IMG/VR virus record: IMGVR_UViG_3300034103_002674 | Span: 1-64,000 of that record | Reading direction: 5' to 3' (one strand) | DNA from: a virus | DNA: 64,000 bases | Shown: one piece after another, positions 22,354 to 37,642 of the stretch | Numbering within the stretch: the first letter of the stretch is position 1 | Layout of the letters: each line of letters begins with the position of its first letter | Translations under genes and position numbers: made by a program | The notes under the pieces: model-generated | Database searches by the model: none | Seen by the model: only the letters and a program-made list of their open reading frames with translations | What the model was told of the DNA's origin: nothing

Positions 22354-23553
22354 TTACTTAGCCTCCTTAGAAATGGAAAGGGGCTTCTTCCAGGCATTCT
22401 GCAGCATATCCATATAAGCGGACGGCGCAGAAACAGGAGAAGCAATGGAAGCTACGGCTTTACGCAGCTCATCAGTGGTGGCAGAATCAGAACGACCTTC
22501 AGAGAGAGTGTCGAACATTGCCTGTACGTAGTCGTCGCTTTTCTCAGAAAGATCAAGCTCATCACCACGCACTGCTTTGATGGAATCAACCATCACTTCA
22601 CGGGCAGTTTTGCCAGTGAATTCATAAGCGCTATCCAGAACGGGCTTGGCTTTCTCAATGAGAGCCACGCGCTCTTCAACCATCGAATCAAGGTTGATTT
22701 CTTGGGCAGCAGTCAGTTCAGTCTTCAGTTCTTCGACCTGCTCAGCCAGAGCATCGGCCCGCCCTTCGGCAGAATCCATTTTGCCCTTCATTTCTTTTTC
22801 CATGGCGTCCATTTCAGACTTCATGGAATCAGCGGCTGCTTGCAGTTCGTCGTACTTCTTCTTCATGTCCTCGAAGGACATTTTGGCGTCTTCGCGTTCT
22901 TTAGTGATCGCAAGAGCAACGCTCTCCGTCACTTCAAACTCGGCGCCATCAAACACGACTTTTGCAGTCATTAGATGGTCTCCTCCGTTAGAGATCAAAG
23001 ATGGGTCAGCAGCATCTTGACGATCAAGATGAAGCTTCACTTGCGGGCCAGCGCGGCCCCGACGAACAATAGCGATGTGATTGCCGATGATTTCCTTTTG
23101 GACGCCATCGTAATGCTCGCCATTTTCTGTAACGCCAGGCGTGGGATCGTAATTCACCCTGTAGCCAGCGCTTACCTCACGAGCATCCCCCTTCATGATG
23201 CGCTTAATGGTGTCTTCGTCAGTGATTGTCATCACTGCTTTAACAAAACCATTGTCGTACACCACTTCGGTGCCACTAAAGCCCACTTGGTAGTCTTTGG
23301 TGTTCTCAGAATCGAGAAGTACGGGGGGATGTTCCGAAGTGATTGCCTTGCCCGCAAATGAAGCAAGACTATCGGGAGACGCCACTTCTATTTCGGGACG
23401 ATATTCACGACGAATGGAGCCATCACTATCTGTGTAGTGTTGGATGCCAGTGCGTGCGATAGAAGCCCATGCCCGAAGATAACCTTCTGGCGTGAGTTCG
23501 TATTTCTCAATAGGAGAGAAATCGTATCGACAAGAAATGGTGCTCATATTCAT
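22354..23553 (-). CDS. Prohead protease (DUF2213) fused to scaffold
   Basis: The N-terminal domain (about residues 1-185) has the DUF2213 motifs KAITSEHPP, with a likely catalytic His, and GDAREVSAGYRVNYDPTPG, with a likely Ser. After a linker at about 190 the protein becomes a coiled coil (about 215-310, Glu/Lys/Met-rich), typical of a scaffold that the protease later removes. It guides capsid assembly and maturation. It is the first gene of the capsid operon on this strand. Confidence 0.85.
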   Translation of the reverse strand: MNMSTISCRYDFSPIEKYELTPEGYLRAWASIARTGIQHYTDSDGSIRREYRPEIEVASPDSLASFAGKAITSEHPPVLLDSENTKDYQVGFSGTEVVYDNGFVKAVMTITDEDTIKRIMKGDAREVSAGYRVNYDPTPGVTENGEHYDGVQKEIIGNHIAIVRRGRAGPQVKLHLDRQDAADPSLISNGGDHLMTAKVVFDGAEFEVTESVALAITKEREDAKMSFEDMKKKYDELQAAADSMKSEMDAMEKEMKGKMDSAEGRADALAEQVEELKTELTAAQEINLDSMVEERVALIEKAKPVLDSAYEFTGKTAREVMVDSIKAVRGDELDLSEKSDDYVQAMFDTLSEGRSDSATTDELRKAVASIASPVSAPSAYMDMLQNAWKKPLSISKEAK

Positions 23554-23615
23554 ACTTTATCAAGAAGCGAATGTTATACTTTATAAGCTTATGCAAAATG
23601 GAATAAAAACTTGTG

Positions 23616-23891
23616 ATGTTCTTGGCACGCAGCACGACGGACGCTCTTAAACTTCCCCATCAAGAAGCTCGTATTCTCATTGCAAGTCGCATTAAAGAAG
23701 CCCGGCTTAATGCCGGGCTCACTCAACATGACGTGGCAAAAGAGCTTCACATCAGTCAAAGTTCTTACTGCCGCATCGAAAAAGGCACTGCCCCACCAGA
23801 TTGCGTGCAAATTCGCACTCTTAGTGGTCTCTATGGAATTAGCGTGCTGTGGTTGATGGGCTACCCATCATTCATTGCAAAAATTAATTGA
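23616..23891 (+). CDS. XRE-family HTH regulator
   Basis: The product is about 91 residues. A helix-turn-helix sits near residues 25-80: IKEARLNAGLTQHDVAKELHISQSSYCRIEKG, then a helix ending in YGISVLWLMG. GTG 23613 or ATG 23616 could start it. It runs against the late operon and shares a 60-bp AT-rich intergenic region, with TATACT-like -10 boxes, with the start of the protease gene. It may therefore repress or switch the capsid operon. It is a lone DNA-binding domain with no peptidase or toxin domain. Confidence 0.8.
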   Translation: MFLARSTTDALKLPHQEARILIASRIKEARLNAGLTQHDVAKELHISQSSYCRIEKGTAPPDCVQIRTLSGLYGISVLWLMGYPSFIAKIN

Positions 23892-23928: not shown

Positions 23929-24240
23929 TCAGTCCTCGTCGTCGTCTTCGCCACGAATGCTGGCAAGCTGATTTTCAATGTCTTCCATAATGTAAGACTT
24001 TGCCATCGCCTCAATTTCAAACGTGAGGAACTTTGTCGGCTCAAAATGCTCGTCTGGTTTTTCATAAACGCTCATCACATAGATGTGCGTTTCATCTAGT
24101 CGGCCATTCTTAAAACATTGCTTTTCGACAAGCTCCCACCGCGAAGTATTGCGATGCTCATTAGCCGACAAAATAGACAGAGCCTTCAAAAGACCAATAC
24201 CTTCATCCTCTTCTTCAATGACACGCACATATTCGCTCAT
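23929..24240 (-). CDS. Hypothetical acidic 103-residue protein
   Basis: The protein is acidic, with a poly-acid end (IRGEDDDED) and a likely beta-strand core (WELVEKQCFKNGRLDETHIYVMSVY). It overlaps the frameshifted gene upstream by 4 bp. No family was recognised. It belongs to the minus-strand head module by position. Confidence 0.6.
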   Translation of the reverse strand: MSEYVRVIEEEDEGIGLLKALSILSANEHRNTSRWELVEKQCFKNGRLDETHIYVMSVYEKPDEHFEPTKFLTFEIEAMAKSYIMEDIENQLASIRGEDDDED

Positions 24241-24590
24241 TGGTCTTTTTCGCGACTCTCTACCATCTTAATGATGCGATTTGCCCACGCCCTACCAGCA
24301 TCTCCTCCCCACAAAAGCCACGCAATGTAGCCTGCATCGTTTTCACCTCCACTTTTATTCTTTTCGTGACGAGAGAAGAACGCTGACATGCGCTTAATAG
24401 TGGCGAAGCTTACGGCCCCGCCGCCAGCTAAATCAGAAGCCCTGGCCACTCCACTGCCAATGCCTTGCTTGCCTGCCTCTTGCGTCGTCAATCCTCCTTT
24501 CCCATGCTTCTTGCGCAGCTCCAGGCCGCGACGAGCCGCAGATCGCACAGCAGCAGGAGGGGCAAAGCTTTCAGCGTCACCCCTTAGCGC
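24237..24590 (-). CDS. Second frame of a DUF6496-type protein, reached by -1 frameshift
   Basis: The frame is open from the slip at 24590 to 24237 (117 residues). The only own start would be GTG 24548, which lies inside the segment PPAAVRSAARRGLELRKKHG. I remember that segment as conserved as a whole in phage proteins, so the real protein probably begins upstream. Downstream come SFATIKRMSAFFSRHE and AWLLWGGDAGRAWANRI. Its function is unknown; in other phages similar domains lie near portal and capsid genes. Confidence 0.65.
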   Translation of the reverse strand, partial: ALRGDAESFAPPAAVRSAARRGLELRKKHGKGGLTTQEAGKQGIGSGVARASDLAGGGAVSFATIKRMSAFFSRHEKNKSGGENDAGYIAWLLWGGDAGRAWANRIIKMVESREKDQ

Positions 24591-24856
24591 TTTTTTCCGC
24601 AGGAGCCATCCTCCATTTCTTCCATCCCTTCCTCTTCTTCCTCTTCCTCTTCTTCCTCTTCGCCGATGAGAGTCATAAAATAATTATCCCAATAAGCATC
24701 GCTCTTGCCTTGACGGCTCATGCCGGCTTCCGACAGAGCAATTGCAATCGCCTGCTTACGATTCTTGACGGGCTTCTTGTCGCTGCCCTTCAAGGTGCCG
24801 GCTTTGAATTCGCGCATAACTTTAGCAACTTTTGCTTGCTTTTCTTTCGTAGTCAT
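24584..24856 (-). CDS. DUF6496-type protein with poly-Glu tail
   Basis: The 90-residue zero-frame product contains KVMREFKAGTLKGSDKKPVKNRKQAIAIALSEAG at about 11-45, the DUF6496 signature as I know it, and ends in a run of about ten Glu before GMEEMEDGSCGKKR. The domain is basic while the tail is strongly acidic. The end lies on a slippery run, so a longer fused form of about 207 residues is expected. Function is unknown. Confidence 0.7.
   Translation of the reverse strand: MTTKEKQAKVAKVMREFKAGTLKGSDKKPVKNRKQAIAIALSEAGMSRQGKSDAYWDNYFMTLIGEEEEEEEEEEEGMEEMEDGSCGKKR
24590..24596 (-). promoter_or_regulatory. Putative -1 frameshift site A AAA AAG (dnaX-type)
   Basis: In the zero frame the minus strand reads GGA AAA AAG, the exact dnaX slippery heptamer. 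GGAGG lies 13 nt upstream (24610-24614). A stem AGGGG/CCCCT (24580-24584 with 24558-24562) starts 6 nt after the heptamer and also covers the zero-frame stop. The -1 frame is open and joins the next gene. Confidence 0.7.
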
Positions 24857-24875: not shown

Positions 24876-25586
24876 TTAATTAATAAATCCTATCGGAGCC
24901 GTGGCAATTTTTACGCCTGGAAGAATCCTATCCCTACATAAAACCATTCCAGTAATTAAGCGTTCAGCAATAAAAGCAATTGCACGCTTGTCATATCCTT
25001 CAATGGAAAGAAAATGCTCTTTGTTTTCGCGCCAAATTGGAGCAAGTCCGACAAATAATGTTGTCATGAAGCGCAAATAAGATTGCCTTGGCCCGCGTGC
25101 CATATTGCAGCCAACAAAGGAAGACTGCGCCCAGATCTTATCAATCTCCTCGCGCGTAAAAATCCACTTGCCTTCGTCTGCTAATTTGCGCGTAATTGCT
25201 GGTGCATCAAACGCAGAATGACCGCCGTAGAACTGTTGTTCAAGCGTACAGGAGAATTGAGCCGGTTCTGGCACATACAAAGTTTCCGGGCAATACCATT
25301 CATCTTCTGGCTCTAACCAATTACGCCGATACTGTGCATTGCCAATGTTGAGCTCTTTTGCATTAAGAATCATCCAATGCACGCACGAAAGCTCTCCCCA
25401 TCGATCATTTAATGGAGACAGCATGGCATTTTCATCGTCAAAAGCATAGCCTTCAGCACGAAGACTTTCGCGCTCTTCTTGGCTCAGCGCATGACTTCCT
25501 CCCATAATGGGAACAATGCGAGATTTGGCCGTGTAACGCACCTTCTCCCCTGGGATGCACACCGCATAAATGGTGCTGTCAGCCAT
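24876..25586 (-). CDS. DUF4422-type glycosyltransferase
   Basis: The motif GELSCVHWMILNAKELNIGNAQYRRNWLEPEDEWYCPE matches the DUF4422 core (xxLSxxxWxxxN... IGxxHYRRxF), here with QYRR instead of HYRR. The family is known from capsular and LPS gene clusters. I start at ATG 25586, which overlaps the upstream stop by 8 bp and follows GGAG. This gives 236 residues. It is the last gene of the minus-strand half of the sugar cassette. Confidence 0.7.
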   Translation of the reverse strand: MADSTIYAVCIPGEKVRYTAKSRIVPIMGGSHALSQEERESLRAEGYAFDDENAMLSPLNDRWGELSCVHWMILNAKELNIGNAQYRRNWLEPEDEWYCPETLYVPEPAQFSCTLEQQFYGGHSAFDAPAITRKLADEGKWIFTREEIDKIWAQSSFVGCNMARGPRQSYLRFMTTLFVGLAPIWRENKEHFLSIEGYDKRAIAFIAERLITGMVLCRDRILPGVKIATAPIGFIN

Positions 25587-26295
25587 CTCCATACACCTTA
25601 CGGGCTTGCCACAGCTCATTGTAATTGTTGACGCCCTTAGCGCCAAGTCCAGTCAAGTCGCCACCGCCAGCAGGCTTACTCCACGCCATGATCGTGCCAT
25701 CGGGGAGCACAAAGGCCCTGTTCTTCTGGCTGTGCGTAGGCGTTAACTCGAGGTAGTCGCCATAAACGAAATCGGCTTGGCTTCCATTCGCTGCCAAAGC
25801 TTTCCCAAGCAAAGTTGGGCCAGTGGGGCACAATGGAGTGATGCCGTAATATTGCTCGATGCAATTCGCAACAATCATTTCAATGGCAGTTTGCAAAGCA
25901 GGATTACTTGGCTGGGAATAAAGCACCGTCGTGGCGCACGCCCAGCTTGTATAGCTAAAGCGCTGAATATCACGAAAAGCCAAGAACTTAATTCGCGGCC
26001 CAAGATCCACCGCATTAAAAGCCCTCGCGCCAATATCAAAATACCAGCCACCAAGCTTATTCAATAGACAGAAACGCCCAAGATCCGCCTTGTAAGAAAA
26101 AGGCCTCAGCGTATCGTACGCCCATAGCACTTCTTCTTCATAGTTATCAGCAATGAAAGCTCGAAGTGAATCGTTGTTATAAATGACATGCTTTGCTTCA
26201 GGGAAGCAAGCATCAATGGTGCCCGTAGCATGCTCGAGGAACGGACTAAGCTTTTCCGCTGGATCAGTGGAAAGAAAGATTTGTGAAATTTGCAT
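25579..26295 (-). CDS. Glycosyltransferase of the sugar-binding DXD type (PF04488-like)
   Basis: Residues around 75-105 (LRPFSYKADLGRFCLLNKLGGWYFDIGARAF) match the Gly_transf_sug core, where a donor-binding DXD follows LGGxYxD. Here the second Asp is replaced (DIG). The rest (TGPTLLGKAL, AFVLPDGTIMAW) fits the family fold. ATG 26295 lies 3 bp after the upstream stop. It would transfer a sugar from a nucleotide donor, if still active. Confidence 0.7.
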   Translation of the reverse strand: MQISQIFLSTDPAEKLSPFLEHATGTIDACFPEAKHVIYNNDSLRAFIADNYEEEVLWAYDTLRPFSYKADLGRFCLLNKLGGWYFDIGARAFNAVDLGPRIKFLAFRDIQRFSYTSWACATTVLYSQPSNPALQTAIEMIVANCIEQYYGITPLCPTGPTLLGKALAANGSQADFVYGDYLELTPTHSQKNRAFVLPDGTIMAWSKPAGGGDLTGLGAKGVNNYNELWQARKVYGDG

Positions 26296-26297
26296 GA

Positions 26298-27521
26298 TCA
26301 AACAATCTTCGCGGGAGTGCCAAAGCCTTTAAACTCAGGAGCGGCTGGCTTTGCATTAAGAGTGCGTTCTACCACGTCAAGAAGCTGCTGTTGAATATAA
26401 GGCCAGGTAAAAGGCTCTTCGTGCAAACGGTTATAGCACCATTGCCCATCTTTCTTCAACGCATCGCGATTTTCATAATAATATGACAAGATTTCCGCTG
26501 CGCTTTCAGGGTCAGGAAGCAAACGTTCAAGACCATAGTTGCGATCAGTCTCAGAAGCGTTGCATTGAATACGAGGCATCTCATCAAAGATCTCAGCAAG
26601 GCTTGTATGGTCAGGCACAACTTGCGCCACGCCAACGGAGCCATGCTCGCTATTGACTAAGCCCCAGCCCTCTCCAATGCAAGTGTTGAGCCCAATATCA
26701 GCAGCGTTATACACTTTGTTTAGCTGTTCAATAGAGAGGCAGTTGTCCACCGAGAAATGAGGACTAGTAAGAATCAGCTTGCTTGTCGCATCAAAACCTT
26801 CATCGCGGGCAATGCGCTTAAATAATGGAATGACTTGCCACCCAAGATCTTTGCTACCCATATTGAGCCACAGACGAGCATCATCCTTATCTTTTGCAAA
26901 CTTGATAAATGCCTTAAGTGTTAAATCGATGCGTTTTCGCGGTTGGTTCCTATTGCCATTAAATACGATGAATACATCCTCTGGTACGCCCAGCTCCTTG
27001 CGACACTGCTGTTTATCAAGAGGAAAAAATTTGGTAAAGTCGGTGCCGTGCCCGATAATATCAATCGGCCCGTCCCATCCCATCAAGCGCAGTTCTTTTT
27101 CAGCAAACTGCGTATAAGTGGCAAGACCATCCCACCCTTCCATTTGCCGCTTCAGTTCCGGAAACAATCCATAGGAGTCAATGGGAGTATAGACAAACCA
27201 TTTGAAGCCAAGTTTTTCCCTAAGTGAATTGGCTTGCTCCCACAAGTTGATAGCAATCCAAATATCATTTGTCACCCAAACAAGATCTGGTTTTTCTGCT
27301 TGAATGATGCTGGCAATGCGATGCGACCCAAACGGATCGGATCCATGCAGCATGGCTGGATACACCTTGTATTTCTTCGCCTCGGGATGGGGGTCGCCAT
27401 GGTAGTTTGTGCTCATTACCACCACTTCATGCTTTTGAGCAAGAGCAGGCAGTAGATATTGGGCCACTCTCCCAAATCCCGTTTCTACAAATGCATCGCC
27501 GCAATAGAGAATTTTTGCCAT
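26298..27521 (-). CDS. GT4-family glycosyltransferase
   Basis: This 407-residue GT-B fold protein has an N-terminal Rossmann part with ILYCGDAFVETGFGRVAQYLLPAL and an acceptor-side loop ending GHGTDFTKFFPLD. The C-terminal donor domain has NGNRNQPRKRIDLTLKAF and the E-x7-E motif EGWGLVNSEHG. This is a full-length GT4 enzyme. It is first in the minus-strand triplet of transferases and diverges from the plus-strand pair at 27584. Confidence 0.9.
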   Translation of the reverse strand: MAKILYCGDAFVETGFGRVAQYLLPALAQKHEVVVMSTNYHGDPHPEAKKYKVYPAMLHGSDPFGSHRIASIIQAEKPDLVWVTNDIWIAINLWEQANSLREKLGFKWFVYTPIDSYGLFPELKRQMEGWDGLATYTQFAEKELRLMGWDGPIDIIGHGTDFTKFFPLDKQQCRKELGVPEDVFIVFNGNRNQPRKRIDLTLKAFIKFAKDKDDARLWLNMGSKDLGWQVIPLFKRIARDEGFDATSKLILTSPHFSVDNCLSIEQLNKVYNAADIGLNTCIGEGWGLVNSEHGSVGVAQVVPDHTSLAEIFDEMPRIQCNASETDRNYGLERLLPDPESAAEILSYYYENRDALKKDGQWCYNRLHEEPFTWPYIQQQLLDVVERTLNAKPAAPEFKGFGTPAKIV

Positions 27522-35870: not shown

Positions 35871-35945
35871 GCCCCTATAGCCCAATAGGCAGCAGGCAGG
35901 TCGCTTAAAACGACCACAGTGCAGGTTCGAATCCTGCTAGGGGCA
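35871..35945 (+). tRNA. tRNA with anticodon UAA (reads UUA, Leu) but a short variable loop
   Basis: All arms can be drawn. The acceptor is GCCCCTA/TAGGGGC, the D-stem GCC/GGC, the anticodon stem GGTCG/CGACC with loop CTTAAAA, the variable loop 5 nt, and the T-arm GCAGG TTCGAAT CCTGC; the discriminator is A. Bases 34-36 are UAA. Bacterial tRNA-Leu normally has a long variable arm, which is absent here. CCA is not encoded. Confidence 0.85.
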
Positions 35946-37545: not shown

Positions 37546-37575
37546 GGTTCAATGGAGAAGCGCATTTATCATAGG

Positions 37576-37642
37576 GCATCTCTGGGAATTGAACCCAGTA
37601 CTCTAGGCTCCATGGCCTAACGTGTTCCGTACACCAAGATGC
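37576..37642 (-). other. Degenerate tRNA-like element
   Basis: On the minus strand an acceptor GCATCT/AGATGC, a D-arm GTG/CAC, an anticodon stem TAGGC/GCCTA and a T-arm CTGGG TTCAATT CCCAG can be drawn. The element is only 67 nt, the anticodon loop has 6 nt (CATGGA) and lacks U33, and the D-loop is very short. It is probably a decayed or unusual tRNA. CAU is the only anticodon that suggests itself. Confidence 0.4.

Follow-up and report, generated by a model that had tools for sequence, protein, structure and literature searches.

Probable programmed −1 frameshifting joins DUF6496 proteins to a conserved second domain in S-CBS4-like phages and metagenomic virus contigs

The junction between a DUF6496 gene and the reading frame that follows it in an S-CBS4-like virus is very probably a programmed −1 ribosomal frameshift, judging from the DNA and from a comparison of homologous loci. 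The window analysed here, a stretch of 64,000 nucleotides, comes from a virus record of 70.3 kb, and its capsid region has 80% DNA identity to Synechococcus phage S-CBS4. The features concerned are as follows.

24584-24856, minus strand: ORF1, DUF6496 protein in the zero frame, 90 aa, with an acidic tail and a GSCGKKR end
24614-24610, minus strand: GGAGG, Shine-Dalgarno (SD)-like, 13 nt upstream of the heptamer
24596-24590, minus strand: slippery heptamer A AAA AAG, zero frame GGA AAA AAG
24586-24584, minus strand: TAA that ends the zero frame, as the second codon past the heptamer
24583-24577 and 24565-24559, minus strand: 7-bp stem GGGGTGA/TTGCCCC with an 11-nt loop
24548-24546, minus strand: internal GTG within the −1 frame, which we do not accept as an initiation codon
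24237-24590, minus strand: ORF2, domain B in the −1 frame, 117 codons and a TGA stop
23929-24240, minus strand: ORF3, 103 aa, whose own ATG overlaps the ORF2 stop (ATGA)
22354-23553, minus strand: head maturation protease (DUF2213; PF09979, E=6.8e-44; PHROG 530, E=6.5e-105)

ORF1 belongs to the DUF6496 family by its match to PF20106 (E=2.2e-9; 38 bits, above the curated cut-off of 24), and its 3' end reads GGA AAA AAG CGC TAA. The first-pass annotation had placed a dnaX-type heptamer at 24590-24596 on the minus strand, and A AAA AAG is present there. It had also described a −1 frame open for 117 codons, which we read directly over 24590-24240, followed by the stop at 24239-24237. The fused product would have 206 residues (89 + 117) rather than the estimated 207 or so. 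ORF2 matched PHROG 2859 (E=2.5e-18), covering positions 164-268 of a 740-position profile and hence only part of it, and had no match in Pfam (up to E 1) or NCBIfam (up to E 0.1). We call this ORF2/PHROG 2859 part domain B. Downstream of ORF1-ORF3, and in the same direction, lies the head maturation protease, with the capsid region beyond it.

The corresponding pair in phage S-CBS4 is gp018 and gp019, where the junction reads AGA AAA AAG GGC TAA and is followed by the same stem. In that record, gp019 (L001 3040-3348) is annotated from an internal GTG, so that its gene model lacks the N-terminal residues of domain B as well as its connection to gp018. A 4-nt overlap joins gp019 to gp020, as at ORF2/ORF3 of the window.

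Several other elements of the window were recorded. Between ORF3 and the head protease, a small antisense ORF (23613-23891, plus strand) appears by eye to encode an XRE-type helix-turn-helix protein; S-CBS4 gp021, a 'transcriptional regulator', has the same place and orientation. Upstream, near the head genes, 24876-27521 (minus strand) holds the gene for a DUF4422 protein (E=3e-9) and another gene that is positioned like S-CBS4 gp014, annotated as a glycosyl transferase group I. ARAGORN placed an unusual tRNA-like element, its anticodon undefined, at 37574-37642 (minus strand) and a normal tRNA-Leu (taa) at 35871-35945.

We then compared the junction across homologous loci. Several of the locus scans, including the IMG/VR scan with ORF2 and the DUF6496 scan, returned the best 80 matches each. 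Of the heptamer, the ORF2 query held just the final base; the best 80 IMG/VR loci that it found, together with the window and S-CBS4, form a close set of 82. At the expected place, these carried AAAAAAG in 75 loci and GGGAAAG in seven; the stop in the heptamer frame was the second codon in 78, the first in two (L058, L073) and a later one in two (L033, L045). Further scans with other family members brought the collection to at least 239 distinct domain B loci, counting those identical over the domain plus 150 nt upstream once. A DUF6496 gene lies just upstream in 109 of them. The remaining 130 include L080 and L287, in which the heptamer is visible and the upstream gene is cut by the contig start. 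Two loci (L024, L027) are absent from the motif searches with n=98, and alignments A2 and A3 were built from representatives, 125 and 71 sequences respectively, rather than from every locus.

The homologue alignment that the first-pass annotation had proposed bore out its reading: among the matches listed, 100 of the 109 DUF6496-domain B loci carry a zero-frame X XXA AAG together with a domain B that is open at −1. The nine departing loci are seven in-frame fusions without the heptamer, L058 and L169. The heptamer of the 100 loci is AAAAAAG in 74, GGGAAAG in 19 and CCCAAAG in seven; the tandem-slip rule is kept by all three X types. Among 64 heptamers measured in Escherichia coli with stimulators, these three ranked highest in efficiency (PMC4066793). 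In 91 of the 100 loci the zero-frame stop comes as the second codon past the heptamer, in six as the first, and in three (L033, L045, L166) it follows several codons on. On the best tree (107 rows), heptamer type and in-frame state together require at least 20 changes; the well-supported inner branches of that tree (18 of 103) force fewer (4, 4, 2 and 2 for the four states).

Elsewhere in the ORF1 zero frame, XXXAAAG occurred at seven of 9641 codon positions in the 100 loci. Within the last six codons it was found in 86 of 92 DUF6496 genes with domain B (exceptions L033, L045, L058, L085, L166 and L169) and in one of 71 DUF6496 genes without domain B among the matches listed, these controls being drawn from the best 80 matches and not a random sample. 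In the same listed controls, any X XXY YYZ near the stop occurred in 15 of 71. Among the 130 domain B loci in which no DUF6496 gene was found upstream, any heptamer with open frames was present in two (L119, L399). At L171, DUF6496 is kept and domain B is absent from the locus and from the 55.7-kb record, which is possibly a fragment; the gene end there lacks the heptamer. A scan of six-frame ORFs in the collected loci (ATG start, at least 60 aa; 3267 distinct ORFs) found 85 in which X XXA AAG is separated from the stop by 0 or 3 nt. The −1 frame was open for at least 80 codons in 84 of these, all of them the DUF6496-domain B pair; the profile identified the following domain B in 83, and the last is the window's own copy, L082. 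In the genome collection, two of 214 pattern matches encode relatives, and a search of plasmid DNA with the S-CBS4 gp018-gp019 pair gave no match.

Downstream of the heptamer, the stem begins after 6 nt, directly behind the zero-frame stop. The distance given in the first-pass annotation was therefore right, whereas the overlap with the stop that it described would exist only through a possible closing pair, A24584-T24558. A stem of at least 7 bp starting 3-10 nt after the heptamer is present in 95 of the 100 loci, compared with 20.6% of 2000 synonymous-codon shuffles. Among the others, L172 and L297 have the heptamer without a comparable stem, and the stem of L299, L302 and L311 has only 6 bp. 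Across 48 aligned rows, all distinct and close, 98.8% of the cells in the 7-bp helix are paired, and in an inner 3-bp helix only 67.4% are.

Within the stem, pair 18-34 is AU in 24 of the 48 rows, CG in 13, UG in five, GU in two and unpaired in four; in the wider set, 12 of 98 lack this pairing. Column 18 falls on a silent position of a Gly codon and column 34 on an Ala/Ser position, so that the silent base follows the amino acid change. Over both helices there were 21 double-change cells, compared with 10.9 in shuffles, and none of 500 shuffles reached as high a count. No excess over the shuffles was seen in how many pairs had a double change (2, compared with 2.2) or in further pair types (10, compared with 9.0). 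A covariation sign test on well-supported branches, with only four independent pairs, gave a mean of 3.6 in the expected direction and 0 against (p 0.125). The 90 nt downstream in the window folded no better than dinucleotide shuffles (z −0.35). Since the folding energy of this segment is ordinary, the case for the stem rests on its position and on the comparison, not on energy in one sequence.

The GGAGG 13 nt before the heptamer, also claimed in the first-pass annotation, is indeed present in the window, but the comparison gives it no support as a general component: an SD-like 5-mer match 6-17 nt upstream occurs in 14 of 98 loci and a 4-mer match in 59 of 98, counts that purine-rich codons confound. 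Glu codons would produce such matches in any case.

We next considered how else the second frame might be expressed. ORF2 could be a separate gene, translated from an internal GTG or near-cognate start by reinitiation or coupling after the ORF1 stop, as the S-CBS4 annotation of gp019 from that GTG implies. The closeness of the ORF1 stop to ORF2 would suit such a reading, and a GTG or TTG precedes the AARRG core of the domain B frame in 51 of 98 loci. However, none of ATG, GTG and TTG does so in 46 of 98, and homologues with a separate, well-placed start, which the first-pass annotation had named as evidence against a frameshift, proved rare, with an ATG only in L263 (1 of 98), where it overlaps the ORF1 stop. 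The window GTG at 24548, which is the first ATG, GTG or TTG of the −1 frame after the heptamer and has no preceding SD by eye, encodes the V of VRxAARRG. This V is found in 100 of 100 loci, but its third base varies (1.58 bits): the codon is GTG in 27 of 98 loci and otherwise drifts freely among GTN. ORF2 is conserved as a protein ahead of any possible start, with FxPP, which precedes the GTG, fixed in 100 of 100 loci. The first-pass annotation had argued that this start would cut a conserved-looking segment; it would indeed remove residues 1-14, including FxPP and a predicted strand. In the ORF2 model (pLDDT 91.5, pTM 0.85), that strand comprises residues 8-9 (SF), a further one residues 60-61, and helix 1 begins at residue 13; a start at residue 15 would lose the first of these strands. 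A separate gene would also leave the heptamer swaps and the one-frame fusions unexplained, and we consider it very unlikely.

Slippage might instead occur during transcription, with RNA polymerase adding or dropping an A in the A run, so that some mRNAs carry both parts in frame. An A run is present in 74 of the 100 loci (six A in 64, including the window, seven in five and eight in five), and L058, with seven A, has DUF6496 in frame with domain B. The run is only three A long in the 26 loci with GGGAAAG or CCCAAAG, which counts against slippage on a long A run, and a stem about 6 nt downstream with a stop two codons on suits ribosomal slippage, making the transcriptional route extremely unlikely. 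L058, which retains the stem together with its seven A, could be a genuine fusion or could reflect a sequence error. It and L169, which has several frame breaks, are what could be cited for gene decay, or for errors in sequencing or assembly, as the general cause. However, the isolate S-CBS4 and contigs from many metagenomes share the layout, which is realized with three heptamers, and ORF2 is under protein-level constraint; the 100 loci refute such a cause for the group, and its chance is negligible.

Seven loci encode the joined product without a frame change. In L286, L288, L289, L310, L312, L314 and L315, a single frame runs from DUF6496 through an acidic linker or a short joint into domain B, and the heptamer, the stop and the GGGG stem arm are missing. 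The GGGG arm is replaced by AGAGACGAC, AGGGACGAC, CGTGACGAT and CGAGGAGAT in these fusions; in L310, L314 and L315, another 7-bp stem is still possible further on, in another register. The seven represent five kinds, as L286 and L289 are 99.7% alike and L314 and L315 are 99.8% alike. These one-frame fusions indicate that selection keeps the joined protein, and that the signal is lost when it is not needed.

Under the programmed frameshift that we favour, ribosomes translating the DUF6496 gene would reach A AAA AAG, which in relatives is G GGA AAG or C CCA AAG. There the tRNAs in the P and A sites would together slip back by one base, aided by the GC stem about 6 nt downstream, and a fraction of the ribosomes would pass the stop two codons on and read domain B. 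The expected products in the window are the 206-aa fusion of DUF6496, acidic linker and domain B, and the 90-aa short protein. We infer that slippage takes place in the host and that both products are made.

In L173 (1790-2725), L174 and L175, ORF1 has an extra Cys-rich N-terminal region of about 140 residues before DUF6496, and the frameshift would yield a much longer fusion there. L246, on a contig binned as a Rhodobiaceae MAG, has the same arrangement of DUF6496, AAAAAAG and domain B; the phage group may extend beyond cyanobacterial hosts, or the bin may be mixed.

To consider what domain B might do, we examined its partners in other proteins. A head protease, portal or capsid domain was present in 10 of the 17 other domain B proteins examined. 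By Pfam, domain B is joined to an XkdF/S78_2 protease in Limnohabitans phage DC31, L334, L335 and L338, to an S78 protease in L363 and L366, to a Mu-I-like protease in L349 and to a portal in L354; by PHROG, it is joined to a capsid with protease in L351 and L365. In the last two (L351 2471-5059; L365 1202-3886), domain B lies near the N terminus, and the matches are PHROG 4523, 'major head and protease protein', and Phage_capsid_4. The other seven of the 17 lack a Pfam head domain (the Vibrio phage proteins P0001 and P0003, L269 with DUF6582, L330 with DUF5872, L333 with a C39 peptidase, L345 and L380). One protein of Vibrio phage 1.112.O contains domain B along with a DUF6496-like stretch, in reverse order; our own profile detected this stretch (E=1e-5), for which Pfam gave no call.

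Searching predicted viral protein structures gave 55 matches at E 0.001 or better, and the names among the 50 listed include prohead protease, XkdF and portal, and also Dps, ParB and HAD-like proteins. PDB fold searches, run with the fusion model and then with just domain B, found nothing at E 0.001 or better (the highest VIA-align Z values were 3.3 and 4.2); rows for the lambda repressor N-terminal domain recurred in them at Z of about 2 to 2.6 and were not used. Domain B matched no PDB sequence up to E 1 and no defence family at E 0.01. The natural fusion L314 was modelled with pLDDT 90.0 and pTM 0.62, and the relation of its halves is unsure.

Domain B is thus a mobile partner, mostly of proteins in or building the prohead. 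On the strength of these partners, the frameshift product may quite possibly be a minor head-associated protein, with domain B as the part active in or alongside the prohead and its dose relative to free DUF6496 set by the frameshift. More tentatively, the frameshift could act as a dose valve that puts a head-carried domain B on a set share of otherwise free DUF6496 carriers, with a signal, made up of interchangeable heptamers and a covarying stem, that evolves as a unit and is discarded in one-frame lineages. The purpose might also be different: the frameshift could serve mainly to bring ribosomes through ORF2 to the ORF3 start (ATGA) and so tune ORF3, or the short DUF6496 protein could be what chiefly matters, the fusion arising as a by-product. 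The overlap of the ORF2 stop with the ORF3 start in the window and in S-CBS4 is consistent with this, as is L171, in which DUF6496 is kept with an ORF3-like gene (by eye) and without domain B or heptamer. Domain B is, however, strongly conserved, and the one-frame fusions retain both domains, so that we regard such a purpose as rather unlikely.

The proposed signal resembles known systems in part. In E. coli dnaX, the −1 frameshift uses the heptamer A AAA AAG with an SD-like motif upstream and a stem a few nucleotides downstream, and the shifted frame ends almost at once, which shortens the product. The window shares the heptamer, the SD-like motif and the stem a few nucleotides downstream; unlike in dnaX, the −1 frame here adds a 117-residue domain, and the SD-like element lacks support as a general feature. 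Frameshifting extends the major head protein in T7 gene 10 and reportedly also in phage A2. Our case is similar in being a head-module frameshift that adds a C-terminal part, but the zero-frame protein is not a capsid protein, and ORF1 had no match among the capsid families of Pfam and PHROGs. The tail assembly chaperone frameshift of phage lambda (gpG/gpGT) uses G GGA AAG, the heptamer of 19 of our 100 loci, and likewise gives a short and an extended product from a phage structural module. In contrast, ORF1 here is DUF6496 and ORF2 is PHROG 2859, the pair precedes the head protease and capsid genes, and none of the Pfam, PHROGs and NCBIfam matches of either ORF is a tail assembly chaperone family. 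Such frameshifts are a subject of the PRFect publication (PMC10885494).

Domain B also invites comparison with polyvalent phage proteins, whose domains are joined to portal or other head proteins and are predicted to be packaged and injected (PMC5512222). Domain B is similarly joined to a portal and to head proteases in other phages. The fusion might accordingly be packaged and ejected, or it might help in assembly. The main text of PMC5512222 nowhere uses the word frameshift.

A search of the open-licence literature agreed with the first-pass annotation that no frameshift has been described in the DUF6496 family: it found no paper on DUF6496, and nothing on this gene pair in titles or abstracts on frameshifts or polyvalent proteins. 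As far as this literature was searched, the mechanism is known and the gene family is new for programmed frameshifting. Tail chaperones and capsid extensions are the usual places of phage frameshifts. The junction described here would be a well-conserved frameshift outside them, present in many metagenomic virus contigs and in the isolate S-CBS4, whose record splits the probably frameshifted gene in two and cuts the second part. The 100 loci with three heptamers, together with their one-frame relatives, form a natural experiment and supply matched sequences with which stimulators could be tested in cyanobacterial hosts. The finding further draws attention to a mobile and mostly head-associated domain for which neither Pfam nor NCBIfam gave a matching model.
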